Below the pieces are notes generated by a model that did not search any database, was not told the origin of the DNA, and worked only from the letters and a program-made list of their open reading frames with translations. The position numbers and the translations under genes were made by a program. A stretch of 54,611 bases of DNA from an uncultured delta proteobacterium (GTDB lineage: Bacteria; Desulfobacterota; Desulfobulbia; Desulfobulbales; Desulfurivibrionaceae): the NCBI GenBank assembly GCA_903869265.1, contig CAIPYE010000013.1, forward strand, positions 1 to 54,611, written 5' to 3'. Shown piece after piece: positions 36,525 through 51,020 of this stretch. Position 1 is the first letter of the stretch; each line of letters opens with the position of its first letter.

Positions 36525-37649
36525 ATGAAAGAGCAGGATTTTGCCAGGGTCAGTGAGCGTCTGAACGGGATATCCCGTCGTGATTTCATGAAGTTCTGCA
36601 CGGTGATGGCCGCTGGCATGGGGCTGCCCCTTGAGTTTGCGCCGCAGATCGCGGCGGCGGTCACGGCTCCGCAACGTCCTCCGGTGATCTGGCTATCCGG
36701 CTCAGGTTGTACCGGTTGCACCGAATCGCTGCTGCGCCCCTCCCATCCCTCCCTTGAGCATCTTATTCTTGACCTTATCTCTCTGGATTACAATGAAACC
36801 CTCAATACCGGAGCCGGGCATCAGGCGGAAGCTGCCTTGCAGTCCTCGATTCAGAAGAATGCCGGCAAGTTCATCCTGGTGGTGGAAGGGGCCATTCCTG
36901 TAAAGGATAACGGCGTGTACTGCATGATCGGCGGCAAGCCTTTCACTGAAATCGTGCGCGATACCGCAGCCAAGGCCGCCGCCGTTATCGCCATTGGCTC
37001 GTGCGCCTCCTGGGGCGGGGTTGCCGCGGCAAAGCCAAACCCCACCGGCGCCATGGGTGCGCCGGAGTTTCTCAAGGGCAAGACCGTGGTGACGATTCCC
37101 GGATGTCCGCCCAATGCCTATAATTTTCTTTCCACCGTGATCCATTTTCTGACCTTTAAAAAATTGCCTGCTCTTGATGAAAAAGGGAGACCGAAATTCG
37201 CCTATGGCCGCCTCATTCACGAAAACTGCGAACGCAGACCCCATTTCGACGCGGGCCGTTTTGCCATCAAGTTCGGCGACGATGGGCATCGCAAAGGTTA
37301 TTGTCTGTACAAGCTCGGTTGCAAGGGGCCGATGACCTTTGCCAATTGTCCGGCCATTCTTTTTAACGATGTGGGTCCAGGCGCCTGGCCCGTGGGCACC
37401 GGGCATCCCTGTTTCGGCTGCACCGAGGAAGGGGTTGGTTTTAATATCCCTCTGCATACCCAGGCCGACTTGAAATACATCACTCCTGGGGCTGCGTATC
37501 CGCACATTGTCTCCGAGCGGGGGGAGGGCGCCTCGGTGGGCGCGGTGGCCCTTGTTGCCGGGGTGGCTGGCGTGGCATTGGGAGCCGGGGTAGCGGTTGC
37601 CAAGAACCTTGGCAAGCCCGGGCAAGGGTCTTCCTCAGAGGGAGAATAG
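36525..37649 (+). CDS. hybO: [NiFe] hydrogenase small subunit (HybO type)
   Basis: 374 aa, exported by Tat (SRRDFMKFC at 17-25). Fe-S ligands: proximal Cys62/Cys65 (GCTGC), GSCASWGG and GCPPN; distal His/Cys in HENCERRPHFDAGRF and YCLYKLGCKG; medial NCPAILFN and HPCFGCTE. The extra proximal cysteines of O2-tolerant enzymes are absent, with Gly at both places. A C-terminal membrane anchor (about 336-358) matches HybO. It starts a hybO-hybA-hybB-hybC operon, group 1 uptake type with a quinone-linked membrane module. Confidence 0.95.
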   Translation: MKEQDFARVSERLNGISRRDFMKFCTVMAAGMGLPLEFAPQIAAAVTAPQRPPVIWLSGSGCTGCTESLLRPSHPSLEHLILDLISLDYNETLNTGAGHQAEAALQSSIQKNAGKFILVVEGAIPVKDNGVYCMIGGKPFTEIVRDTAAKAAAVIAIGSCASWGGVAAAKPNPTGAMGAPEFLKGKTVVTIPGCPPNAYNFLSTVIHFLTFKKLPALDEKGRPKFAYGRLIHENCERRPHFDAGRFAIKFGDDGHRKGYCLYKLGCKGPMTFANCPAILFNDVGPGAWPVGTGHPCFGCTEEGVGFNIPLHTQADLKYITPGAAYPHIVSERGEGASVGAVALVAGVAGVALGAGVAVAKNLGKPGQGSSSEGE

Positions 37650-37653
37650 GGTT

Positions 37654-38604
37654 ATGAAGATACGACGCAGGGATTTTTTAAAAGGGATCGCAGCCAGCGG
37701 TCTGTTGGTGGCTGCGGAGCAAAACCCGGCCCAGGCCAAACGGGCCCGGAAGGATCTTCCCCCCAATGCCGTTGGTATCCTGTACGATTCCACCCTCTGT
37801 ATCGGCTGCAAGGTCTGTGTGTATGCCTGCAAACAGGCCAACAACATGCCGGCGGAACACACTAAGGCCAACGAGCCGATGTGGGATGACCCCCAGGATC
37901 TATCCGCCAAAACCCTGAATATCATCAAGCGCTACGGCGTTGAGGGGCCCAAAGACTCGGTCGCGGGGTTTGCCTTTATCAAACGGCACTGCATGCACTG
38001 CCTTGATCCCGCATGCGTTTCAGCCTGTCCGGCCTCGGCGCTGGTGAAAAATCCCGAGAACGGGGTGGTGACGTACAACAAAAAAGCCTGCATTGGTTGC
38101 CGCTACTGTCAGGTGGCCTGTCCCTATAATATCCCCAAATTTGAGTGGGATTCGCCTTTCCCGGAGATTGTCAAGTGCCAGATGTGCGCCCATATCCTGG
38201 CCAAGGGCGGGATTTCCGCCTGCTGTGCTGCCTGCCCCACCGGGGCTTCCCTGTTCGGGCCGGTGGAAAAGCTGCGGATAGAGGCCAAGCGGCGGCTGAG
38301 CATGACGCCTGGAGAGTATTACGATTTTCCGGTGGCCAATATCGAGTCCACCGAGGTGCAGCAGCACCGGGCAGGTGGATATGTTCAGCATGTGTATGGC
38401 GAGCGGGAGCTCGGCGGCTCTCAAGTTCTCTATCTGGCCGGAGTGCCGTTTGCCAATCTCGGCCTGCCCGATCTGCCCGAGGATTCCTATGTGGCCCTGG
38501 CGGACGGCATCCAGTACGCCATTTACAAGGGCATGGTCTATCCCCTCGTGGTCCTGGGCGGTTTGATCTATATCATCCGGAACAGGGAAGAGAAAAAAGA
38601 GTAG
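37654..38604 (+). CDS. hybA: Hydrogenase ferredoxin-like subunit (HybA type)
   Basis: 316 aa with a Tat signal (RRRDFLKGIA). Four [4Fe-4S] Cys clusters: CIGCKVCVYACKQ, CMHCLDPACVSACP, CIGCRYCQVACPYN, and CQMC...CCAACP. A C-terminal membrane helix (about 290-308) anchors it, as in E. coli HybA. It carries electrons from HybO to the membrane subunit HybB. The ATG at 37654 lies four bases after hybO, with a GGGAGAA Shine-Dalgarno; an open frame further upstream overlaps hybO and is not used. Confidence 0.93.
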   Translation: MKIRRRDFLKGIAASGLLVAAEQNPAQAKRARKDLPPNAVGILYDSTLCIGCKVCVYACKQANNMPAEHTKANEPMWDDPQDLSAKTLNIIKRYGVEGPKDSVAGFAFIKRHCMHCLDPACVSACPASALVKNPENGVVTYNKKACIGCRYCQVACPYNIPKFEWDSPFPEIVKCQMCAHILAKGGISACCAACPTGASLFGPVEKLRIEAKRRLSMTPGEYYDFPVANIESTEVQQHRAGGYVQHVYGERELGGSQVLYLAGVPFANLGLPDLPEDSYVALADGIQYAIYKGMVYPLVVLGGLIYIIRNREEKKE

Positions 38605-38644
38605 GGGCTTGAGGCTCTGACTTTTCAAGGAAAGGAGTGTTCCC

Positions 38645-39781
38645 ATGCAGGAGAGACAAGCATTAGGAGGCAGGTTGCTGACCGTGCCCTTCAAGGTGTG
38701 CGCCGCTATCGTGCTCATAGGTCTTTTTTTCCTCGGCAAACGGTTCATCTTTGGCATCGGTTCGGTTACCAACTTGAACGACGGCTATCCATGGGGAATC
38801 TGGATCGCCTATGATGTGGTGGTGGGTACGGCCCTGGCCTGCGCTGGGTATTCCATCGCCTTGCTTGTTTATGTGTTCAATAAGGGTGAATATTCGCCCC
38901 TGGTGCGCCCCGCCTTGATGACCAGCATGTTCGGCTACACCCTGGCCGGGGTCTCGGTTATTTTCGACATTGGTCGGTATTGGCAGGGCTACAATATCTT
39001 CCTGCCCTGGCTCAGCAATCTGCATTCGGTCATGTTTGAGGTTGCGCTGTGCATCGGCACCTATATTCTGGTGCTGTGGATGGAGTTTGCCCCGACCATG
39101 CTGGAAAAATTCAAGGCGGATGAGTTGAAGGCCAGACTTAACAGGGTCATTTTCGTGTTCATCGCTTTGGGTGTTCTTCTGCCCACCATGCATCAGTCCT
39201 CGTTGGGCACTATGATGCTCATGGCCGGGCACAAACTTTCGCCCCTTTGGTGGAGCGGCTTTCTGCCCCTGCTTTTTCTCATCACCGCCGTGGTCATCGG
39301 CTATGCCGCAGTGATTTTTGAGTCGCTCGTATCCTCCATTGCTTTCAAGCGGCCGCTGGAGATGCACCTGCTGAGCAAGATCTCGGCGTTCATGCCTTGG
39401 ATGCTTGGCCTCTATCTGGTGGTCCGGATCGAGGACGTGAACCTGCGTGGCTATCTGCCCCTGGCCTTTGACGGAGGACTTCTGGGCAACCTCTTCCTTC
39501 TGGAAAATTTATTGTTTCTGGCCGCCTTGCTGATTCTGGCCTATCCTAATAATCGGCAGAGTCCGCGCCTTTTGTTTATCGCTTCCTGTGCCATGCTGCT
39601 GGGTGGGGGCATGTACCGTTTCAACACCTACATTGTCGGTTTTGATCCCGGCACCGGCTGGCGGTATTTCCCCTCGGTGCCGGAACTGTTTATCACCTTC
39701 GGGATCATTGCTGCGGAAGTGATGGTCTATCTGTGGTTTGTCAAGAACTTGCCGGTATTGCCCAGACTCAAAAAAGCATAA
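38645..39781 (+). CDS. hybB: Quinone-reactive membrane subunit (HybB/NrfD family)
   Basis: A 378-aa polytopic inner-membrane protein with about ten hydrophobic helices. Family features include the N-terminal DGYPWGIWIAYDVV (about 38-51) and MHQSSLGTMMLMAGHKLSPLWW (about 183-204). HybB/NrfD proteins exchange electrons between a periplasmic Fe-S subunit and quinone and may move protons. AAGGAG precedes the ATG at 38645. It has no heme motif, unlike the HyaC cytochrome b partner of other hydrogenases. Confidence 0.92.
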   Translation: MQERQALGGRLLTVPFKVCAAIVLIGLFFLGKRFIFGIGSVTNLNDGYPWGIWIAYDVVVGTALACAGYSIALLVYVFNKGEYSPLVRPALMTSMFGYTLAGVSVIFDIGRYWQGYNIFLPWLSNLHSVMFEVALCIGTYILVLWMEFAPTMLEKFKADELKARLNRVIFVFIALGVLLPTMHQSSLGTMMLMAGHKLSPLWWSGFLPLLFLITAVVIGYAAVIFESLVSSIAFKRPLEMHLLSKISAFMPWMLGLYLVVRIEDVNLRGYLPLAFDGGLLGNLFLLENLLFLAALLILAYPNNRQSPRLLFIASCAMLLGGGMYRFNTYIVGFDPGTGWRYFPSVPELFITFGIIAAEVMVYLWFVKNLPVLPRLKKA

Positions 39782-39808
39782 TAATATATACCCTGAAGGA
39801 GAGTGTTC

Positions 39809-41512
39809 ATGGCTAAGAGAATCGTCGTTGATCCCATCACCAGAATCGAAGGGCATCTCCGGATTGATTGCGAGATTGACAATGGCCGGATAACCAAGGC
39901 CTGGTCCTCTGGCCAGATGTGGCGTGGAATCGAGTTGATCCTCCAGGGACGTGATCCGCGTGATGCCTGGATTTTCACCCAGCGGATCTGCGGAGTCTGC
40001 ACCACCGTGCACGCCATTGCCTCGGTGCGGGCCGTGGAGAATGCCCTGAACCTGGAGGTGCCGCTCAACGCCCAGTACATCCGAAACATGATCGTCGGTG
40101 CCCACGGGATATTTGACCATATCGTGCACTTTTATCATCTTTCCGCCTTGGACTGGGTCGACATCGTTTCCGCCCTCAAGGGCAGTCCCAAGGGGGCCGC
40201 TGCCCTTGGTCAGCAGCTTTCCCCCTGGCCTCGCAACAGCGAACAGGAAATCAAGGCGGTGCAGGAAAAACTGAAAGGGTTTGTCGGCAGCGGCCAGCTT
40301 GGCATCTTTGCCAGTGGCTACTGGGGGCATCCGGCCATGAAGCTCTCCCCGGATGTCAATCTGCTCGCCGCCACTCATTATTTCCAGGCCCTGGAGTATC
40401 AGCGAAAGATTAACAAGGTCGTGGCCATTCTCGGCAGCAAGACCCCGCATATCCAGAACATGGCTGTGGGTGGGGTGGCTAACCCCATCAATCCGGACAG
40501 CCAGTCTACTCTGACCATTGAGCGGCTTCTCTACATCAAGACCCTGATCGATGAGGTCGGGGATTTCATCAAGAATGTCTACATGGTCGATGTTGCCGCC
40601 ATCGGCGCTTTTTATGCCGACTGGACCAAGTATGGAGCCGGTGTGACCAATTATCTCTCGGTGCCGGATATGCCCCTGGACACCAAAGGGACCGTGTTTG
40701 ACCTTCCCGGCGGGTACATTGGTGATGGAAAGGTGGGATCGTTTAAGCCGATCACGAGCTTCAACGACGATTTTTTCAAGCAGGGGGTAAAAGAGGGGAT
40801 CAAGCATTCATGGTACAAGGGAGACTGGGACCGTCATCCCTGGGAAGAGGAGACCGTGCCCCAGCATACCGATTTTCAGGACAACGGCAAATATTCCTGG
40901 GTCAAGTCACCGACCTTCAATGGAAAACCGGCCCAGGTCGGGCCGCTGGCAAATGTATTGGGCATGTATGCCGCAGGGCATGGGCCTACTAAAAGGTATA
41001 CCGACATTATGCTGGAAACAGTGAGTAAACTTGCCGGAGCCAAGGTCGGGATCGAGGCCCTCCATTCCACCATAGGCCGACATGCGGCAAGGTCGGTGCG
41101 CTGCGCCGTGCTGCACGACTCCCTGCTTGGCCAGTGGCAATCTCTGATGGACAACATTGGCCGGGGGGATTATGCAACCTTCAACCAGCCGGTGTTCCCG
41201 AAGGGCGAACAGCGTGGGATGGGTTTTCATGAGGCGCCGCGCGGAATGTTGTCTCACTGGGTCGTGATCCAGGATGGCAAGATCAAGAATTATCAGTGCG
41301 TTGTGCCCTCAACCTGGAACGCCGGGCCCAGAAATAACAATGATGCGCCTGGGCCATACGAAGCCTCGCTGGTGGGCAACCCGGTGGCTGATCCGGAAAA
41401 ACCCCTTGAGGTGTTGCGCACGGTCCATTCCTTTGACCCGTGTCTTGCCTGCGCCATCCACCTTTTGGACCCGGAGAGCCGGGAAATCGTCACCGTCAGG
41501 ACTGTAGCATAA
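39809..41512 (+). CDS. hybC: [NiFe] hydrogenase large subunit (HybC type)
   Basis: 567 aa. L1 nickel motif RICGVCTTVH (Cys61, Cys64); L2/L5 motif DPCLACAIH (Cys545, Cys548, His551). Sixteen residues follow His551 and would be removed by the maturation protease after nickel insertion. It has no signal peptide and is exported with HybO's Tat signal. AAGGAG lies seven bases before the ATG at 39809; a GTG two codons earlier is less likely. A strong terminator follows at 41534-41573. Confidence 0.96.
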   Translation: MAKRIVVDPITRIEGHLRIDCEIDNGRITKAWSSGQMWRGIELILQGRDPRDAWIFTQRICGVCTTVHAIASVRAVENALNLEVPLNAQYIRNMIVGAHGIFDHIVHFYHLSALDWVDIVSALKGSPKGAAALGQQLSPWPRNSEQEIKAVQEKLKGFVGSGQLGIFASGYWGHPAMKLSPDVNLLAATHYFQALEYQRKINKVVAILGSKTPHIQNMAVGGVANPINPDSQSTLTIERLLYIKTLIDEVGDFIKNVYMVDVAAIGAFYADWTKYGAGVTNYLSVPDMPLDTKGTVFDLPGGYIGDGKVGSFKPITSFNDDFFKQGVKEGIKHSWYKGDWDRHPWEEETVPQHTDFQDNGKYSWVKSPTFNGKPAQVGPLANVLGMYAAGHGPTKRYTDIMLETVSKLAGAKVGIEALHSTIGRHAARSVRCAVLHDSLLGQWQSLMDNIGRGDYATFNQPVFPKGEQRGMGFHEAPRGMLSHWVVIQDGKIKNYQCVVPSTWNAGPRNNNDAPGPYEASLVGNPVADPEKPLEVLRTVHSFDPCLACAIHLLDPESREIVTVRTVA

Positions 41513-41533
41513 TTGTTGTTTGAAATATCTATT

Positions 41534-41573
41534 AAAAACAGGCCGTCCCGACAACCGGGACGGCCTGTTTTTT
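41534..41573 (+). terminator. Strong intrinsic terminator between hybC and the protease gene
   Basis: A perfect 15-bp stem (AAACAGGCCGTCCCG with its complement, 41536-41570), a 5-base loop and a T6 run ending at 41573. The next gene's Shine-Dalgarno AAGGAGG begins at 41574, so it abuts the terminator. There is no space for a promoter before the ATG at 41584. Confidence 0.9.
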
Positions 41574-41583
41574 AAGGAGGCGT

Positions 41584-42072
41584 ATGGCTGACAAGATTCT
41601 GGTGCTTGGCGTGGGGAACGTGCTGCTTTCCGACGAGGGGGCGGGAGTAAGAGCGGTGGAACAACTCCAGCGGAGCTATGTTTTTTCTCCCCAGGTGGAG
41701 CTTATCGACGGCGGCACCATGGGCCTTGACCTCCTGGGATATCTTGATGATACGAGCCATCTGTTCATTATCGATGCAATTGTCTCGAGCAAACCTCCCG
41801 GTTCGGTGGTCATTGAAAAATTGCTCGACCCTCCCGCCTATTTTCGGCAGAAGATTTCTCCCCACCAGATCGGGATTTCCGAGCTTCTGGCCGTAGCGGC
41901 CATGCAGGATTGCCTGCCCCCTTCCATCACTCTTTTCGGCATCGTTCCCCTTGATCTGTCCACCGGCATAGAGATGTCGCCTATGGTCAATGCCGCAGTT
42001 GAGCAAGTGGTTCTGGCCGTGGTAGAAGAACTTGACCTGATGGGGGTTAAGGTCGGAGCGGCAAGCTGTTGA
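41584..42072 (+). CDS. hybD: Hydrogenase maturation endopeptidase (HybD/HyaD family)
   Basis: A 162-aa M52 protease that cleaves the C-terminal tail of the large subunit once nickel is in place. It has GVGNVLLSDEGAGV (nickel-sensing Glu, about 9-22), DGGTMGLDLL (second Asp region) and the His near ISPHQIG. It presumably processes HybC after His551. Expression appears limited by the terminator pressed against its ribosome-binding site, which would keep the protease below subunit levels. No hybE, hybG or hybF duplicates are present. Confidence 0.92.
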   Translation: MADKILVLGVGNVLLSDEGAGVRAVEQLQRSYVFSPQVELIDGGTMGLDLLGYLDDTSHLFIIDAIVSSKPPGSVVIEKLLDPPAYFRQKISPHQIGISELLAVAAMQDCLPPSITLFGIVPLDLSTGIEMSPMVNAAVEQVVLAVVEELDLMGVKVGAASC

Positions 42073-42227: not shown

Positions 42228-42902
42228 ATGGCGAAGATCGGTGTTTTTGTGGCGGATGACCATTCTGTGGTCAGGGAAGGGCTGCGTCAGATGCTTGCCA
42301 AAAGCAAGGGTTTGGCGCTGGTTGGCGAGGCTGCGGACGGCGAGGTCGCCGTCAAGGAGATCCGCAGATTGCAGCCGGATGTGGCGATCCTTGATGTCGC
42401 CATGCCCATGGTCAGCGGTCTCGAATGCATTCCGCTTATCAAGAACGATTCTCCCGGCACGGCAATTGTGATCCTGTCGATGTTTGCCCGCGAAATGTAT
42501 GTGCAGCAGGCCCTGGCAGCCGGAGCCCTTGGCTATGTTTTAAAAACCGCCCCTTGGCCAGAGGTTCTTGAGGCGGTGCAGATGGTGGCCCAGGGCAAGT
42601 ATTTTTTAAGCAGGGAGATAAATTCCGATCTCATTCGCGGCTACCTCAACAATGAGGAGCAAAAATCAGCCGAGTCGAGCAGGTACGACCTGTTGTCTGT
42701 ACGGGAACAGCAGATATTCAGGCTGGTCATTGAGGGCAACCCCACCAAAAACATAGCCGAAATCCTGTGTCTCAGCCCAAAAACCGTGGAAAAGCACCGC
42801 TCCAACATCAGCAAAAAGCTCGGGATGAGAGAGCCGCTGGCCATGCTCAAGTTTGCCATGAAGATCGGCGTGGCCAATCCCGATCTTTGGCCGGATTCAT
42901 AA
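42228..42902 (+). CDS. NarL/LuxR-type response regulator
   Basis: A 224-aa regulator. The receiver has Asp56 in AILDVAMP, acidic pair ADDH (9-12) and Lys in VLKTA. The C-terminal LuxR helix-turn-helix is LSPKTVEKHRSNISKKLG. It lies between the hydrogenase genes and the sensor kinase, so it likely controls one or both. The neighbouring kinase has a HisKA rather than HisKA_3 core, which is atypical for NarL-type partners. A GGAGAAAGG Shine-Dalgarno precedes the ATG. Confidence 0.9.
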   Translation: MAKIGVFVADDHSVVREGLRQMLAKSKGLALVGEAADGEVAVKEIRRLQPDVAILDVAMPMVSGLECIPLIKNDSPGTAIVILSMFAREMYVQQALAAGALGYVLKTAPWPEVLEAVQMVAQGKYFLSREINSDLIRGYLNNEEQKSAESSRYDLLSVREQQIFRLVIEGNPTKNIAEILCLSPKTVEKHRSNISKKLGMREPLAMLKFAMKIGVANPDLWPDS

Positions 42903-43078: not shown

Positions 43079-45119
43079 GTGAACGATTTTGTAGGGTCGC
43101 ATATTTCTTCAAAAATCATGCCCGTGCCTGTCCAACGGTTTACCTGGATTCTGGTCGGGGTATGGACCTTGTTCCTCACCGGTCTTACTTTGTACGCGAT
43201 AAGTGATATCCGGCAGATCACCCGGGAAATAGCCATTAGCGAAATTCGGGCCTACTGCAACAAGGACCGCGCCATGCGCACCTGGGGGGCTTCCCATGGC
43301 GGGGTCTATGTTCCCCATCGATGAGCGGACGCCGGTGAATCCATATCTGGCGCATCTTCCAGAAAGGGATTTGGTGACGCCTTCCGGCAGGGCGCTAACC
43401 TTGATGAATCCCGCCTACATGATGCGGCAGATGGGCGAGGACTTTTCGAGTCTCTACGGGGTGGTCGCCAGGATGACAAGCCTTAATCCGCTACGGCCTG
43501 AGAATGGCCCGGATGCGTGGGAACGCCGGAGTCTTGAAGAGTTCGCACACTCCGCTCAGCGGGAAAAGATCGAATTCACCCAGATCAACGGAGTGCCCCA
43601 CCTGCGTTTGATTCAGGCGGTGCTGGTTATTCCGGACTGTCTGCGTTGTCACGGCCATCAAGGGTATAAGGAAGGGGATATCCGGGGCGGTATCAGCATC
43701 AGTCTATCCATGGCAGGCGCGTTGGCTCTTCAGAAAAAGCAGATTTTGTCGACCGTGTTGCGCTCGGGGCTAATTTGGGGGCTCGGGCTAGCCGGACTGC
43801 TTATCGGCGGAGGCCTCCTGCGGCGGCGGGTTGCGGAGCGTGATGCGGCCCAGGAGGCGTTGCAGCAATCCAAAGACCGTCTTGCCAGCAAAAGCGAAGA
43901 GCTTGCGGAGGCCAACGCTGCCTTGCTCAACGAGATTGCCGAGCGGAAAAAGGTCGAAGCCGAGATTCTGGTCAGCGAGGAAAAGTTTCGCACTGTTGCG
44001 GATTTCACCTACGATTGGGAATACTGGAAGGATGCCGAAGGTAATTTCGTGTATGTCTCTCCCTCTTCCGAGCGGATCACAGGGTACAGGCCGGAGGAGT
44101 TCAAGGAAAATCCCGAGCTATTTATGGAGATCATCCATCCGGACCACAAGGATCAGATGAAAAGTCATTCCAGGCATGTCGTGTCCGAATACGGAGTGTG
44201 CATGCTGGAATTTCGGATCATTACCCGGGACGGAAAAGAACGCTGGATTGGCCATATCTGTCAGCCTGTGTATGGGCAGTCTGGTGAGTTTTTGGGGATC
44301 AGGGCAAGCAATCGTGACATCACCGGCAGCAAATGGAGCGAGAAAAACCTCAACAAGTTCGCCGTGGATCTGGCCCACAGCAACAGGGATCTTCAGGATT
44401 TTGCCTACATGGTCTCCCATGACCTGCGGGAACCGCTGGTTCTTGTTCAGGCATTTAGCGAGCGACTGCGAGCCCGCTATGGGGAAAACATCCCCGAAAA
44501 GGGGCTGGAATATATTAGGCGGATCGAAAGCGCGACTACGCGGATGCAGGAGCTGATCTCCGGGGTGCTGGCCTATTCGCAGGTTTCTGCCAAGGTTCAG
44601 TCCTTCGAGGAGATTGACCTGGAGAAGATTGTGCTACAGGTGATTTCCGATTTGGAGATGCGGATCGCCGAGACCGGCGGGCGGGTTGAGGTTGGCAGCC
44701 TGTGCCGGATCAAGGCGGACCCTCTCCAGATCAGGCAGCTCTTTCAGAACCTTATAGCCAACGGTCTTAAATATCGCAGGCAGGATGTACCCCCGCACGT
44801 TCTGGTCTCCAGCCGGATCATCCCCAGTTCGGAGGGCGACGGGACGGGGGAGTTCTGCTGCATTACCGTTGAGGATAACGGCATTGGCTTTGCCTCGGAG
44901 TTCGCCGACAGAATCTTCGGTCTTTTCCAGCGGTTGCATGGCCGGAGCCAGTACGAGGGTGCCGGTATCGGCCTTGCCGTATGCAAGCGGATTACAGAGC
45001 GGCATGGCGGAACCATCACTGCGGAATGCTCGCCAGGGAAGGGGGCGCGGTTTATCGTTACTCTGCCGGTGCAGGGCCCTGCGATTGATGATCTGGAGCA
45101 GCTTGACTCTCAGAAATAA
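43079..45119 (+). pseudogene. DUF3365 heme-c sensor histidine kinase, interrupted by a +1 frameshift
   Basis: Two frames together make one kinase. The first (43079 or ATG 43118 to 43324) gives a membrane helix and the start of a DUF3365 (Tll0287-like) sensor, ending SHGGVYVP-HR-stop. The second continues from IDERTPVNPYL. The break is one extra C in CCCC at 43313-43316. Downstream: heme motif CLRCH, second membrane helix, coiled coil, PAS, HisKA (MVSHDLREP) and HATPase (VEDNGIGF, GAGIGLAV), with no other lesion. It is either a sequencing error, a phase-variable tract or a recent inactivation. Confidence 0.85.
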
Positions 45120-45186: not shown

Positions 45187-45531
45187 ATGCATGAGATGTC
45201 TCTGGCAATAAACATCGTCGAACTTGTTTCGGCAAAGGCGCAGGCCGCTGGGGGACAAAGGGTCACCTCGGTCGAACTTGAGGCTGGCAAGCTTTCCGGG
45301 GTAATGATCGAGGCGCTGGTCTTCTGTTTTGAAGCCGCCACCTGTAATACTCCGGCTGAAGGTGCTCGTCTTGAGGTCCGCGAGGTTGAAGGACGCGGCC
45401 GCTGTCTGGGCTGCGGTCATGCCTTTGCGCTTGATTCCCTGCTTGCCCAGTGCCCGCAGTGTGGCGGATACGCGGTGGAAATCGTACAGGGCAAGGAATT
45501 GAAGGTTGTAGCCCTCACCATTGACGAATAA
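45187..45531 (+). CDS. hypA: Hydrogenase nickel incorporation protein HypA
   Basis: A 114-aa HypA. It has the N-terminal MHEMSLA, in which Met1-His2-Glu3 binds nickel, and a zinc domain with CLGCG and CPQCGG (a C-x2-C pair at each end). It passes nickel to the large subunit together with HypB. The longer open frame over the kinase end is a shadow; the MHE start is required for function. It heads hypA-B-F-C-D-E and lies 67 bases after the kinase. Confidence 0.94.
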   Translation: MHEMSLAINIVELVSAKAQAAGGQRVTSVELEAGKLSGVMIEALVFCFEAATCNTPAEGARLEVREVEGRGRCLGCGHAFALDSLLAQCPQCGGYAVEIVQGKELKVVALTIDE

Positions 45532-45542
45532 TAGGTGGATCC

Positions 45543-46304
45543 ATGTGTGATTCCTGCGGTTGCAGTCGGCCGGAGAACAGCGTAACCATCACGAGGCCTG
45601 GGCAGGCTCTGTCCGGTCCCGGCTCGGCAGGGCACCACCATTCACATCAAGCCCGGCAGGGCCGGGTTGTGGAGGTGCGGGAGGCGGTGCTCGGTAAAAA
45701 CGACGGGATTGCCGCGCACAACCGGGCTTTCTTTAAGGAGCGGCGGATCGTGGCCTTCAATCTGGTCAGTTCTCCAGGTTCGGGCAAAACCACGATTCTG
45801 GAGCGGACCATCCGGGAGCTGCGGCAAGAGATTCCCATGGCGGTCATCGAAGGGGATCAGCAGACCATGCTCGATGCCGAGCGGATCGATGCCACCGGGG
45901 TGCCTGTGGTGCAGGTGAACACCGGGGCGGGTTGCCATCTTGACGCGGACATGGTGCATCAGGCCCTGCACCAGATGGATCTGGCCGAGAACTCCCTGCT
46001 CTTTATTGAAAATGTTGGCAATCTGGTTTGTCCGGCCATGTTTGATCTGGGCGAGGCAGCCAAGGTTGTGATCATCAGCGTCACCGAGGGGGAAGACAAG
46101 CCCCTCAAGTATCCGGCCATGTTCGATGCGGCCAGCCTGTGTCTGATCAACAAGACCGACCTGCTGCCCCATGTGGATTTTGATGTGGCCCGCTGTCGGG
46201 AATATGGACTGCGAGTGAATCACCATCTGGAATTTTTTGAGATATCCGCCAAGACCGGCGAGGGCATGCCTGCCTGGCTGGACTGGCTGCGTAGTCAAAT
46301 CTGA
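45543..46304 (+). CDS. hypB: Hydrogenase nickel incorporation GTPase HypB
   Basis: A 253-aa SIMIBI GTPase. It has the N-terminal high-affinity nickel motif MCDSCGC (C-x2-C-G-C) and a short His cluster HHHSH (31-35). P-loop SSPGSGKTT (about 77-85), EGDQQTMLDAERI and NKTDLLP (G4) are present, as are the metal-site residues in NTGAGCHLD. It lacks the long poly-His nickel store of some rhizobial forms. The gap from hypA is 11 bases with AGGTGG upstream. Confidence 0.95.
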   Translation: MCDSCGCSRPENSVTITRPGQALSGPGSAGHHHSHQARQGRVVEVREAVLGKNDGIAAHNRAFFKERRIVAFNLVSSPGSGKTTILERTIRELRQEIPMAVIEGDQQTMLDAERIDATGVPVVQVNTGAGCHLDADMVHQALHQMDLAENSLLFIENVGNLVCPAMFDLGEAAKVVIISVTEGEDKPLKYPAMFDAASLCLINKTDLLPHVDFDVARCREYGLRVNHHLEFFEISAKTGEGMPAWLDWLRSQI

Positions 46305-46312
46305 AGGATTTC

Positions 46313-48583
46313 ATGCCAAGCGAGCGCTGGAAGATATCGGTTGGCGGCATTGTTCAGGGCGTCGGCTTCCGGCCCTTTGTCTATCGGCAGGCATTGGCGC
46401 ATGGCCTGGCGGGTTTTGTGGCCAATACTTCGGAAGGGGTTGCCATCGAGGCCCAGGGGCAGGCTAGGCAACTTGAGGATTTTTTGGTTGCCCTGCGAAA
46501 AGAAGCGCCCCCCCTGGCCCAGGTCGGCAAGATCAGGTTTGCACCCATTCCTCTGAGCCAGGATGACGGATTTGTCCTTCACCATTCGGTGGCTTCCGGT
46601 CCGGTCTCCACTCTGATCTCCCCCGATGTTGCGGTATGCGAGGCTTGCCTGGCTGAGTTCTTCGACCCGGCTGATCGTCGGTTCCGCTATCCCTTTATCA
46701 ACTGCACCAACTGCGGCCCCCGCTATACCATCGTGCAGCGCATCCCCTACGACCGTCCCCACACGACCATGCGGGGGTTTACCATGTGCGCGGCTTGCCA
46801 GCGGGAATACGATGATCCCTCCAACCGGCGTTTTCACGCCCAACCCAACTGCTGCCCGGATTGCGGGCCGCAGCTCCGCCTGGTTGCGATGGATGGGCGG
46901 CGGGTGGCTGAACGGGATGAGGCGCTCAGCGAGGCGGTCCGGCGGCTGGCGGCGGGCGAGATTGTGGCGGTCAAGGGGATTGGCGGGTTTCATCTGGCAG
47001 TGGATGCGACCAACGGCCAGGCGGTGAGCCGATTGCGGCAGAGGAAGGGGAGGGAGGCCAAGCCTCTGGCGGTCATGGTTCCCCATCTGTTCGCGGCCCG
47101 GAGAATCTGTCGGCTGGAACTCCTGGAAGAGCAGGCCCTTACGAGTCAGGCGCGGCCTATTGTTCTGGCTGCCAAAAAAGAGGGGCATGGGTTGGCGGAA
47201 GAGGTTGCGCCGGGATACGATCAGTTTGGCCTTATGCTGCCCTATGCGCCGCTCCACTTTCTTCTCTTGCAGGAGGGGGTGGTGCGGGCCTTGGTCATGA
47301 CCAGCGGTAACCGCAGCGAAGAGCCGATCTGTATCGAAAATAATGAGGCTGTGCAGCGGTTGTCCGGAATTGCCGACTGTTTTCTTCTGCATGACCGGGA
47401 CATTCACCTTCCCTGCGACGATTCGGTGGTTGGACTTCAGGCTGGAATGATTCGACAAATCCGGCGCAGCCGTGGCTTTGCCCCCAAGCCCATCGGTCTT
47501 GCGGAGACAGGGGGTATGGTTCTCGGGGTGGGGGCGGAACTCAAGAACACCGTCTGTCTGTTGAAAGGGGACCAGGCTTTTTGCAGCCAGCACATCGGGG
47601 ATCTGAAAAATCTGGAGGGTTACCGGGTCTTTCAGCAAAGCATCGGCCAGTTGGGGGCTCTTTTTGAGATCAGCCCAACCCTGATCGTGCATGACCTGCA
47701 CCCCCAGTATCTCTCCACTCGATGGGCCCAGGAACAGAGTGTGCCTACTCTGGCCGTGCAGCACCACCATGCCCATCTGGCCGCATGTCTGGCCGAGAAC
47801 CACCAGGACGGCCCTGCCATCGGCATTATTCTCGATGGGACGGGGTACGGCCCGGATCAAACCATCTGGGGCGGCGAAGTTTTGCTGGGAGACGCCCGTG
47901 GCTACCAGCGGTTTTCCACCCTGGAATCCTTGCCCCTGCCGGGCGGGGATGCCGCGGTGCAGGCGCCCTGGCGGATTGCCTTGAGTTATCTCCATGCCGC
48001 CTATGGCACGGATCTGCCCGACCTGCCCTTTATGGAGGCCCATGAGTGCGGGGTGATTCTGACCATGGTGCAAAAAAGGGTGAACTCCCCTTTGACCAGC
48101 AGTTGCGGCAGGCTTTTTGATGCGGTGGCCGCCATGAGCGGAGGCAGGCAGATTATCCAATATGAGGCCCAGGGAGCCATTGAGCTGATGCAGGTGGCTG
48201 GCGACAGGCTTGACGAGGAGGGTTTTCCCTGCGAAGTTTACGCAGAAAATGATATGCTGAAAATCTCGGTGCGGTCTTTGATCCGGGCGGTGGCTCAAGC
48301 CGTGCAAGCCGGTATGGCGCAGAGCGAAATCAGCCGCAGGTTTCATGCCGGGTTGGTTGCGGTCTTTGCTCGGGTGGTTGAGGAGGCGCGACGCCGGGAG
48401 AAAATAAATACAGTGGTCTTGAGTGGCGGCGTTTTTCAGAACCGGCTGCTCCTGGAAGGGCTGGGTGCCTCCCTGGAACGTGCCGGGTTTCAGGTGCTGC
48501 TCCATAAAGAGCTTCCTTGCAATGATGGTTGCATTTCCCTGGGGCAGGCTGTGATCGGCCGTGCGGCTTTGAAAAAAAGGTGA
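46313..48583 (+). CDS. hypF: Carbamoyltransferase HypF
   Basis: A 756-aa multidomain enzyme that makes the CN ligands from carbamoyl phosphate. Domains: acylphosphatase (GIVQGVGFRPFVYR, about 11-24), two zinc fingers (CEACLAEF...CTNCGP and CAACQRE...CCPDCGP, about 108-185), a YrdC-like domain (VAVKGIGGFHLAVDATN), and a C-terminal Kae1-like carbamoyltransferase with HHHAHLAACLAEN. It follows hypB by eight bases. The huge antisense frame over it is a shadow. Confidence 0.95.
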   Translation: MPSERWKISVGGIVQGVGFRPFVYRQALAHGLAGFVANTSEGVAIEAQGQARQLEDFLVALRKEAPPLAQVGKIRFAPIPLSQDDGFVLHHSVASGPVSTLISPDVAVCEACLAEFFDPADRRFRYPFINCTNCGPRYTIVQRIPYDRPHTTMRGFTMCAACQREYDDPSNRRFHAQPNCCPDCGPQLRLVAMDGRRVAERDEALSEAVRRLAAGEIVAVKGIGGFHLAVDATNGQAVSRLRQRKGREAKPLAVMVPHLFAARRICRLELLEEQALTSQARPIVLAAKKEGHGLAEEVAPGYDQFGLMLPYAPLHFLLLQEGVVRALVMTSGNRSEEPICIENNEAVQRLSGIADCFLLHDRDIHLPCDDSVVGLQAGMIRQIRRSRGFAPKPIGLAETGGMVLGVGAELKNTVCLLKGDQAFCSQHIGDLKNLEGYRVFQQSIGQLGALFEISPTLIVHDLHPQYLSTRWAQEQSVPTLAVQHHHAHLAACLAENHQDGPAIGIILDGTGYGPDQTIWGGEVLLGDARGYQRFSTLESLPLPGGDAAVQAPWRIALSYLHAAYGTDLPDLPFMEAHECGVILTMVQKRVNSPLTSSCGRLFDAVAAMSGGRQIIQYEAQGAIELMQVAGDRLDEEGFPCEVYAENDMLKISVRSLIRAVAQAVQAGMAQSEISRRFHAGLVAVFARVVEEARRREKINTVVLSGGVFQNRLLLEGLGASLERAGFQVLLHKELPCNDGCISLGQAVIGRAALKKR

Positions 48584-48586
48584 CAT

Positions 48587-48859
48587 ATGTGTCTGGCGAT
48601 TCCCGGTAAAGTGGTGGAGATATTTAAGGAAAACGGCTTGCTCATGGGGCATGTGGATTACAGCGGCACGGTCAACAAGATTTGTCTCGAGTATGTGCCG
48701 GAGATCGTGGTGGGTCAGTATACCGTGGTGCATGCAGGGTTTGCCCTGTCGGTGCTTGACGAGGAAGAGGCGCAACAGAGCTTTGCGGCCTGGCAGGAAC
48801 TGGTCCAGGCCGTGGCTGCTCAGGGCACGGATATCTTCGGCAATCCATTGGAAAAATAA
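48587..48859 (+). CDS. hypC: Hydrogenase maturation chaperone HypC
   Basis: A 90-aa chaperone. The obligatory N-terminus MCLAIPGKV (Cys2 binds the Fe(CN)2CO unit and the large subunit) is intact. It shuttles the iron centre from the HypCD complex to HybC. It starts three bases after hypF. Only one HypC/HybG homologue is present, so it should serve HybC alone or all hydrogenases of the cell. Confidence 0.95.
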   Translation: MCLAIPGKVVEIFKENGLLMGHVDYSGTVNKICLEYVPEIVVGQYTVVHAGFALSVLDEEEAQQSFAAWQELVQAVAAQGTDIFGNPLEK

Positions 48860-48877
48860 AGAGGTTCTTGTCTCTCC

Positions 48878-49972
48878 ATGAAATTTGTTGATGAATACCG
48901 CGACCCGGCCCTGGCCAAGCGTCTTCTTGAGGAAATTCGCCACACCGTGACCCGACCCTGGGTGATCATGGAGATCTGCGGCGGCCATACCCATGCCATC
49001 ATGAAAAACGGGCTTGATCAGCTTCTTCCCGCCCAGGTGGAGCTGGTGCATGGGCCTGGTTGCCCGGTTTGCGTGACCGCGGTGGAAACCATTGACCGGG
49101 CCGTAGCCATCGCAGCCAGACCCGAGGTGATCTTTACCAGCTTCGGCGACATGCTCCGGGTGCCGGGCAGCGTCTCCAGCCTGTTCATGGCGAAATCATT
49201 TGGGGCCGATGTGCGCATGGTCTATTCGCCTCTGGAAGCCGTGGCCCTGGCCCGCCAGAATCCGGAGCGGGAGGTGGTTTTTCTGGCCGTTGGTTTTGAA
49301 ACAACAGCGCCGGGCAATGGCATGGCCCTGTTGCAGGCCAAGCGGGAGGGGCTGACGAATTTCAGCCTGCTGGCCAGCCATGTTTTGGTGCCCCCTGCCA
49401 TCCGGGGTTTGCTCTCCTCGCCCTCCAACCGGGTGCAGGGCTATCTGGCTCCTGGGCATGTCTGCACCATCATGGGCTGGCAGGAATACGAGCCGCTTGC
49501 CGAGGAATTTAAGGTGCCCATTGTGGTCACCGGCTTCGAACCTGTCGACATCCTTGCCGGGCTGCTCATGGTGCTCCGGCAGCTTGAGGCGGGTCGCCAT
49601 GAGGTGGAGAACCAGTACGGCCGGTCGGTGAGCCGGGAAGGCAATGGGGCGGCGCAACGGATCATGGCTGAGGTGTTTGCGGTGAGCGATCGCGCCTGGC
49701 GGGGGATCGGAGTGCTGCCTGCCAGCGGGTTGGTGATCAGGGATCATCTCGCAGCCTATGACGCCGAGCGGAAGTTTGCCGTGGAGACCATCACTGTGCG
49801 GGAATCGGAGTTGTGCAGGAGCGGCGGCGTGTTGCAGGGTCTGCTCAAACCCGATGGCTGTCCGGCCTTTGGCCGGGAATGCACCCCGGAGCATCCCCTG
49901 GGGGCGACCATGGTCTCGGGCGAGGGAGCCTGCGCCGCCTACTACAAATACCACAGGACATCCCATGCCTAA
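48878..49972 (+). CDS. hypD: Hydrogenase iron-centre scaffold HypD
   Basis: A 364-aa Fe-S scaffold on which CO and CN are attached to iron. Motifs: [11 protein letters not shown] (about 29-39, catalytic Cys), HGPGCPVC (about 59-66), and C-terminal [4Fe-4S] cysteines in [20 protein letters not shown] and GEGACAAYY. It works with HypC and HypE. It overlaps the hypE start by eight bases, so these two are translationally coupled. Confidence 0.96.
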
Positions 49973-51020
49973 TCTGAATCCGGAAGATTTCAGCTGCCCT
50001 TTGCCCTTCATGGAGTATGAGACGATCCAATTGGCGCACGGCAGCGGCGGGCGTTTGTCCTCCGAGCTTGTCAGTCGCTTTTTTTTACCGCGTTTTGGCA
50101 ACGAAACCTTGAACCGTCTGGAGGATCAGGCGGTGGTTGATTTTCCTCCGGGCCGTTTGGCCCTGACCACCGATTCCTTTGTGGTGGACCCTCTTTTCTT
50201 CCCCGGCGGCGATATCGGCGATCTGGCGATCAACGGGACCGTGAACGATGTCTGCATGAGCGGGGCCACACCGCTCTATCTGGCCGCGGCCTTTATCCTC
50301 GAAGAGGGGCTGCCCCTGGCCACCCTGCATCGGATTTTGCTCTCCATGGAAAAGGCGGCGAAAACCGCCGGGGTGCAGATCGTGACCGGGGACACCAAGG
50401 TGGTCAACCGGGGTTGCTGCGACAAGCTCTTCATCACCACCACCGGGGTGGGCCGGGTGCCGGAGGGGGTGGATATCTCCGCGGCCAATCTTAAGCTCGG
50501 GGACAAGGTCATCCTCTCCGGTTCCATCGCCGACCATGGCATGGCAATTTTGACTTCCCGAGAGGGGCTTTCCTTTGCCTCCCGGGTGCAGAGCGACACT
50601 GCGGCTTTGAACGGTCTGGTGGCGCAGATGCTGCACGCCTCTTCCCGCATCCATGCCATGCGCGATCCCACCCGGGGGGGGCTTGCCACCACGCTCAACG
50701 AGTTTGCCGCATCCTCCCAGGTTGGCATTGTCTTGGACGAGACAGCCGTTCCGGTGCGGCCCGAGGTGCGGGGCGCCTGCGAGGTGCTGGGCATCGACCC
50801 GATGTATGTCGCCAACGAGGGCAAGCTGGTGGCTGTGGTTCCGGCTGAGGCTGCCGACAGGGTGGTGGCTGCCATGCGCAGTCATTCCCTGGGCCGGGAG
50901 GCCGTGATCATCGGCGAGGTTGTTGCGGACAACCCAGGAATGGTGGCCATGCGCACCGCCCTTGGGGCGCACCGGATTGTCGATATGCCGGTGGGCGAAC
51001 AGCTGCCCAGAATCTGCTGA
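49965..51020 (+). CDS. hypE: Carbamoyl dehydratase HypE
   Basis: A 351-aa PurM-like enzyme that dehydrates a carbamoyl group on its own C-terminal Cys to a thiocyanate. It has [47 protein letters not shown] and the essential C-terminal PRIC. The start is set at the ATG at 49965, which overlaps hypD; the open frame upstream runs within hypD. It closes the hyp operon; the cytochrome promoter begins 80 bases later. Confidence 0.95.

Follow-up and report, generated by a model that had tools for sequence, protein, structure and literature searches.

A single extra base in a four-cytosine run splits a conserved, predicted heme-c sensor kinase gene beside hydrogenase genes in an assembled Desulfurivibrionaceae genome

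Has a conserved sensor kinase recently lost its reading frame in this bacterium, is the loss an error of sequencing or assembly, or are both of the resulting frames put to use? The question is raised by two overlapping ORFs in the 54,611-nucleotide stretch of DNA analyzed here (hereafter the window), which is part of contig C13 of the 2.82 Mb, 17-contig, 99.2% complete genome of an uncultured delta proteobacterium of the Desulfurivibrionaceae. The two frames meet exactly at a CCCC run (Table 1). The upstream ORF terminates in ...GGVYVPHR at a TGA (43322-43324) that starts six bases past the end of the run, and the downstream frame reads ...PIDERTPVNPYL... through to 45119. Such runs are common in the window, where 115 stretches consist of exactly four C and 452 runs of C or G reach four or more bases.

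Table 1. Positions of the split kinase gene, its landmarks and its neighbors in the window.
Feature	Position	Strand	Description
hyb-type [NiFe] hydrogenase genes	36525-42072	+	small subunit, HybA, cytochrome b subunit, large subunit, maturation protease (NCBIfam)
Response regulator	42228-42902	+	receiver and LuxR/GerE-type HTH (Pfam PF00072, PF00196); presumed kinase partner
Upstream ORF	43079-43324	+	81 aa; GTG start at 43079; N-terminal TM helix, Cys60, HGGVYVP, then out of frame to TGA
GGGGGG and ATG 43296	43284-43298	+	possible internal start of the downstream frame; anti-SD duplex -9.3 kcal/mol
Downstream ORF	43296-45119	+	607 aa from ATG; rest of Tll0287-like domain, second hydrophobic helix, PAS, HisKA, HATPase_c
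CCCC run	43313-43316	+	frame break; one base longer than in the 12 closest orthologues
CLRCH	43638-43652	+	heme-c attachment motif (CXXCH) inside the downstream ORF
hypA, hypB, hypF, hypC, hypD, hypE	45187-51020	+	maturation genes (NCBIfam, each above its curated cut-off)

Relatives of the kinase show what the unbroken gene looks like. The 607-residue ORF was used to search 58 genomes, the source genome among them, and 38 had a match at E 1e-60 or better. Ten of the 16 other genomes of the genus, together with two genomes from other genera in the family, supply the 12 closest orthologues (L003-L014, 59-82% identity); the remaining six genomes of the genus, several of them incomplete, gave no match at that threshold. 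Eleven of the 12 also exist under the same sequence as named records (L032-L042), all metagenome-assembled and labeled as Deltaproteobacteria (six), Desulfobulbaceae (two), Proteobacteria (two) or Desulfurivibrio sp. (one). Aligned base by base, all 12 orthologues are one base shorter than the window at this site, and all 12 have a single open frame throughout. When 29 loci (L003-L031) were searched with both ORFs, 17 matched both parts, and in all 17, distant homologues included, both parts share one frame. The residues that span the break are themselves conserved: H72 and G74 to D80, numbered as in the first row, do not vary across the 12 aligned rows, and position 73 is nearly invariant. 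The first-pass annotation, made from the letters of the window, had proposed that one extra base at the CCCC run splits the kinase and that the remaining 600 codons are intact. The first proposal agrees with the shorter site in every orthologue, and the second with the absence of any stop in the 600 codons 3′ of the run. Two of the orthologues, L013 and L014 (named records L041 and L042), are without the PAS region, at about residues 211-347 of the query, and have about 522 open codons in an unbroken frame.

The relatives also bear on whether the gene is naturally divided, with a start of its own for the second ORF, an outcome that the same annotation had named as one that would overturn its reading. 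This is ruled out: an ATG equivalent to the internal one of the window occurs in seven of the 12 orthologues and opens only 25-35 codons, a short dead end. Nor is the tract conserved. The longest C run at the site is two in ten of the relatives and three in the other two, and there is nothing special about the run itself.

What the gene encodes was judged from its domains. The downstream ORF matches Pfam family PF11845 (Tll0287-like, the former DUF3365) at 72.3 bits against a cut-off of 24.1, over profile positions 32-143 of 144. It also carries the CLRCH motif, in which both cysteines and the histidine are invariant in the 12-row alignment, as well as a second hydrophobic helix and kinase motifs; with the PAS, HisKA and HATPase_c domains, these features bear out the earlier description of the gene as a heme-c sensor kinase. 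The upstream ORF alone matched no Pfam family at E 0.001 and, by phmmer, nothing in the PDB at E 1. It contains one hydrophobic helix, with a hydropathy peak at residues 21-42, and Cys60 (43256-43258), a position that is Cys in nine of the 12 orthologues and G or F in the other three. According to passages of a 2026 preprint (PMC12889525), DUF3365/Tll0287 has been reclassified as a heme-c Cache domain, sCache_heme, with CXXCH conserved at 99% and 99.4% in the preprint's two sets, and c-type heme lies outside the cytoplasm, since attaching it involves membrane transport. By analogy with the ligand reported for Tll0287 in the same passages, Cys60 might be a candidate axial heme ligand.

To place the break in the fold, the sensor region of the intact orthologue L032, rather than the window protein, was modeled with AF2 from an 11-row alignment (mean pLDDT 71, moderate). 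The model has a long helix (18-72), a first strand (76-79) and a helix bearing the heme motif (185-194). Its top PDB match by Foldseek is Tll0287 itself (5b82; E 4.7e-6, TM 0.42/0.59, rmsd 7.5, 15% identity), to which a sequence profile also points, weakly (E 0.031). Intact orthologues are predicted to be membrane proteins in which two TM helices flank a heme-c Cache domain that lies outside the membrane, followed by a PAS domain in most and by the kinase. The window gene has much in common with sCache_heme (PF11845) kinases, namely the Pfam match, the CXXCH motif, the fusion to a kinase and a hydrophobic helix on each side of the domain, but differs in that the domain is split over two frames, which makes it a broken member of the group. 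In the L032 model the break maps to the sensor domain's first strand, so that the anchor helix and HGGVYVP are in one frame of the window and the heme motif and kinase in the other, parts that are continuous in all 12 orthologues. Given this separation, loss of normal sensing is to be expected.

The next consideration is how long the gene may have been in this state. We counted a codon change as unique to the window or to the sister L032 if the codon of the other of the two recurs in one or more further relatives. Over the downstream part, unique N/S was 53.0/72.0 for the window versus 29.2/34.8 for L032, and pairwise dN/dS between the two was 0.105 at a dS of 0.90, which is fairly saturated. 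Seven neighboring genes scored in the same way gave dN/dS of 0.049-0.145, a range that includes the kinase; hybB was left out of the scoring, as L032 lacks most of that gene. The downstream part of the window gene therefore shows neither relaxed selection, its N/S being no higher than that of L032, nor further stops. As 188 of the 5400 possible single changes in the 600 codons give a stop, three expected stops would correspond to about 0.048 substitutions per site. The short upstream part shows the opposite trend (N/S 6.0/7.0 for the window versus 1.0/4.0 for L032), over only 69 codons. The lack of decay in the kinase part means that the lesion is young, that it is not real, or that the product survives it, and if the gene is a frameshift pseudogene, the observation is compatible with a very young lesion only.

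The last of these options, that a product is still made, has two conceivable routes. ATG 43296 is preceded by a G-rich stretch whose anti-SD energy is matched or beaten by only 2.3% of the 972 plus-strand ATGs in the window, compared with merely -2.8 kcal/mol for GTG 43079, and production of an anchor-less 607-residue kinase from this ATG is plausible. The sequence at the break, GTT-CCC-C, offers a second route to a full-length product: in work cited in a passage of PMC4519876, CCC-C is a recognized +1-slippery site for tRNA-Pro, slipping up to 1% when it is the second codon in E. coli. A scan of 967 kb (34%) of the genome with aragorn found 12 tRNAs, none of them for proline, a result with no bearing on slippage at CCC-C. 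With the downstream frame undecayed, use of both frames by either or both routes deserves consideration, but neither the internal start nor a C run of four is conserved in the 12 relatives, all of which read through in one frame, and the conservation expected of a programmed +1 site failed to appear. Moreover, the heme-c domain requires export, and the anchor sits on the other ORF. While the break resembles the +1 frameshift errors described in that passage (PMC4519876) in having GTT-CCC-C at its center, it differs from them in that the site exists here only together with the lesion. The internal ATG is likewise unlike an evolved second start, and both the internal start and slippage would be by-products of the lesion. 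We consider use of both frames improbable.

If the extra C was instead introduced during base calling or polishing, the kinase of the organism is intact, and the single lesion, the otherwise intact frames and the absence of relaxed selection downstream would all follow; against this, the run is merely four bases long. To look for other frame lesions, we set 967 kb (34%) of the source genome against another genome of the genus, G008, of which 1.6 Mb, or 57% of its main contig, was covered. Among 1354 predicted G008 genes, 444 had a best match of at least 50% identity, covering 147,526 aligned residues; these are best matches and not strict orthologues. Seven rows in six genes of the source genome hinted at a frame change, and three were kept after inspection by eye. 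Besides the window gene, these are two other kinases of the source genome. One is a sensor histidine kinase (L100:15437; minus strand at G000:C1 about 155437) whose frame is broken by an extra base, lacking in all 11 aligned relatives, in a T run; the other is a hybrid GAF/PAS kinase of about 1085 aa (L209:3624; minus strand at G000:C1 about 303624), split where a G run has one base more than in G008. Orthologues of the hybrid kinase are whole in eight genomes of the genus, including G008, whose copy is a kinase by Pfam; in a ninth, G004, the gene is cut at contig ends. Three further candidates were dropped: at C1:141-142 kb the N-terminal extension of the reference is probably not part of the gene, at C1:183.5 kb there is a similar N-terminal mismatch, and at C5:22-23 kb the reference resembles a shadow ORF.

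The reverse survey (447 pairs) returned two rows, of which one, with stretches of only 19 and 31 residues, was discarded as weak. The other is a likely +1 lesion in a G run of G008 (L145:7622-8057; G008:C1 about 307.6-308.1 kb), whose whole counterpart in the source genome (L226:6809-7345) is a methylated-DNA-protein-cysteine methyltransferase by NCBIfam. These figures supersede a smaller run (150 and 146 pairs; four and zero rows) and replace a cruder earlier survey based on stop-to-stop ORFs on both strands, which included many shadow ORFs (11 and six rows).

All three lesions kept in the source genome are a +1 in a homopolymer, are the sole lesion in their gene and lie in a histidine kinase; among tested genes outside the HATPase class, none was accepted. 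Of the 444 queries, 17 are HATPase-bearing genes, and these hold 7.4% of the aligned residues; the class counts MutL and two queries matching one gene, so that the share of kinases is not understated, and the whole genome contains 78 HATPase_c matches. Leaving aside the window gene, which prompted the survey, both remaining lesions fall in this class, for which 0.074 squared gives about 0.0055, a post hoc figure. This mildly favors real loss of sensors, the class having been chosen after the cases were seen, and it speaks against an artefact, as does the finding of one likely lesion in 447 pairs when G008 was surveyed alike. Conversely, residual error could yield three +1 lesions in the roughly 443 kb of coding sequence that was surveyed, or about one per 150 kb. 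An error in the assembly or the sequencing is a serious contender, though we hold it to be somewhat less than probable.

Lesions in homopolymers, here and in two other kinases of the same genome, could also suggest a reversible phase switch that works through slippage in the C run. Like contingency (phase-variable) genes, the window gene is broken at a homopolymer, but it differs from them in that its run is only four bases long and is absent from all 12 relatives. Runs of the same length are abundant in the window, and the part of PMC5854121 on mismatch-repair mutants of two Vibrio species describes single-base indel rates that climb with run length, which would make a run of four a poor switch. 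In the source genome, mutS is a single open frame and mutL, which lies in the window, is whole; these genes argue against a switch and leave the hypothesis of a mutator strain unsupported. We therefore regard a phase switch as very improbable. We think it similarly far-fetched that the species trims or toggles a large sensor repertoire by run-length mutations while the hydrogenase-linked kinase is still made, anchor-less and blind to its signal, from the internal start. The first-pass annotation had allowed for a recent lesion, an artefact or a switch; the first two are in keeping with the missing extra stops, the unrelaxed selection and the unbroken orthologues, whereas the switch is disfavored by the length of the run, its absence from the relatives and the open mismatch repair genes.

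Most likely, then, the gene was broken recently in an unremarkable way, or else a sequencing error has survived in the assembly. Of the specific explanations, we prefer a real and very recent breakage of a conserved sensor kinase, in which a short C run gained one base, with the confidence of an evenly balanced judgment; the reality of the base itself is inferred. Breakage of this kind is suggested by the 12 intact orthologues, by a gene order kept in the relatives (see below), by a kinase part that was constrained until recently, and by the two other lesions of the survey, which are also in histidine kinases. Set against these points, a homopolymer insertion that is the only lesion in its gene also resembles residual sequencing error; three insertions out of three are untypical of natural mutation, given that deletions outnumber insertions two- to three-fold in the wild-type Vibrio lines of the part of PMC5854121 that treats them; the kinase class was noticed after the fact, from two independent cases; and the short upstream part has more unique non-synonymous changes than that of L032. 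A real breakage would proceed as follows: the gain of one base would break the frame of the histidine kinase in the first strand of its sensor domain, so that the anchor would no longer be joined to the heme motif and the kinase, and normal sensing would, judging from this separation, be lost. At most, some anchor-less kinase initiated at ATG 43296 or a trace of full-length protein made by +1 slippage would be left. The gene would then share with recent frameshift pseudogenes of bacterial regulators a single indel, a frame that is otherwise intact and intact orthologues in related genomes; it would differ in that the internal start could leave a partial protein, and in that both the loss of the product and the reality of the base are deduced.

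The surroundings of the gene indicate what the intact kinase may do. As the first-pass annotation had noted, it lies next to hydrogenase genes, with hyb genes to the left and hyp genes to the right by NCBIfam. Four of the hyb genes exceed their curated cut-offs; the large subunit is assigned by best match only, to the hydrogenase 2 large subunit, at 884 bits and below the cut-off of 969. The order response regulator, histidine kinase, hypA, hypB is found in all 11 named relatives, with contig ends cutting the regulator in L041 and hypB in L042. A large-subunit gene lies upstream of the pair in eight of the ten relatives where this region is visible, L041 being cut by the contig end. In the other two, L037 and L040, no large-subunit match was found in 3.9 and 4.1 kb upstream of the regulator and the block of regulator, kinase and hyp genes is kept, from which it may be that the two-component pair goes with hyp rather than with hyb. 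Promoter and terminator scans near the locus gave numbers close to chance (three versus 2.2 expected and five versus 3.7 expected).

For a HAMP-domain sCache_heme protein, the passages of the preprint mentioned above report the properties of a nitric-oxide sensor and not of an oxygen sensor (PMC12889525). Going by domain family and gene order, the intact kinase and its LuxR-type regulator probably adjust expression of the adjacent hyb and hyp genes according to NO or redox state; among the papers listed in a literature search, none was seen to test control of the hydrogenase by NO or redox state. For the window itself the finding is mainly a caution for annotation, as an automatic pipeline would probably report the locus either as a pseudogene or as two genes, one a small orphan membrane ORF and the other a kinase. 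The intact form is worth notice in its own right, as a heme-c Cache kinase and its regulator stand beside hyp genes in every one of the named relatives, and this conserved gene order suggests NO- or redox-linked control of the hyb-type hydrogenase.
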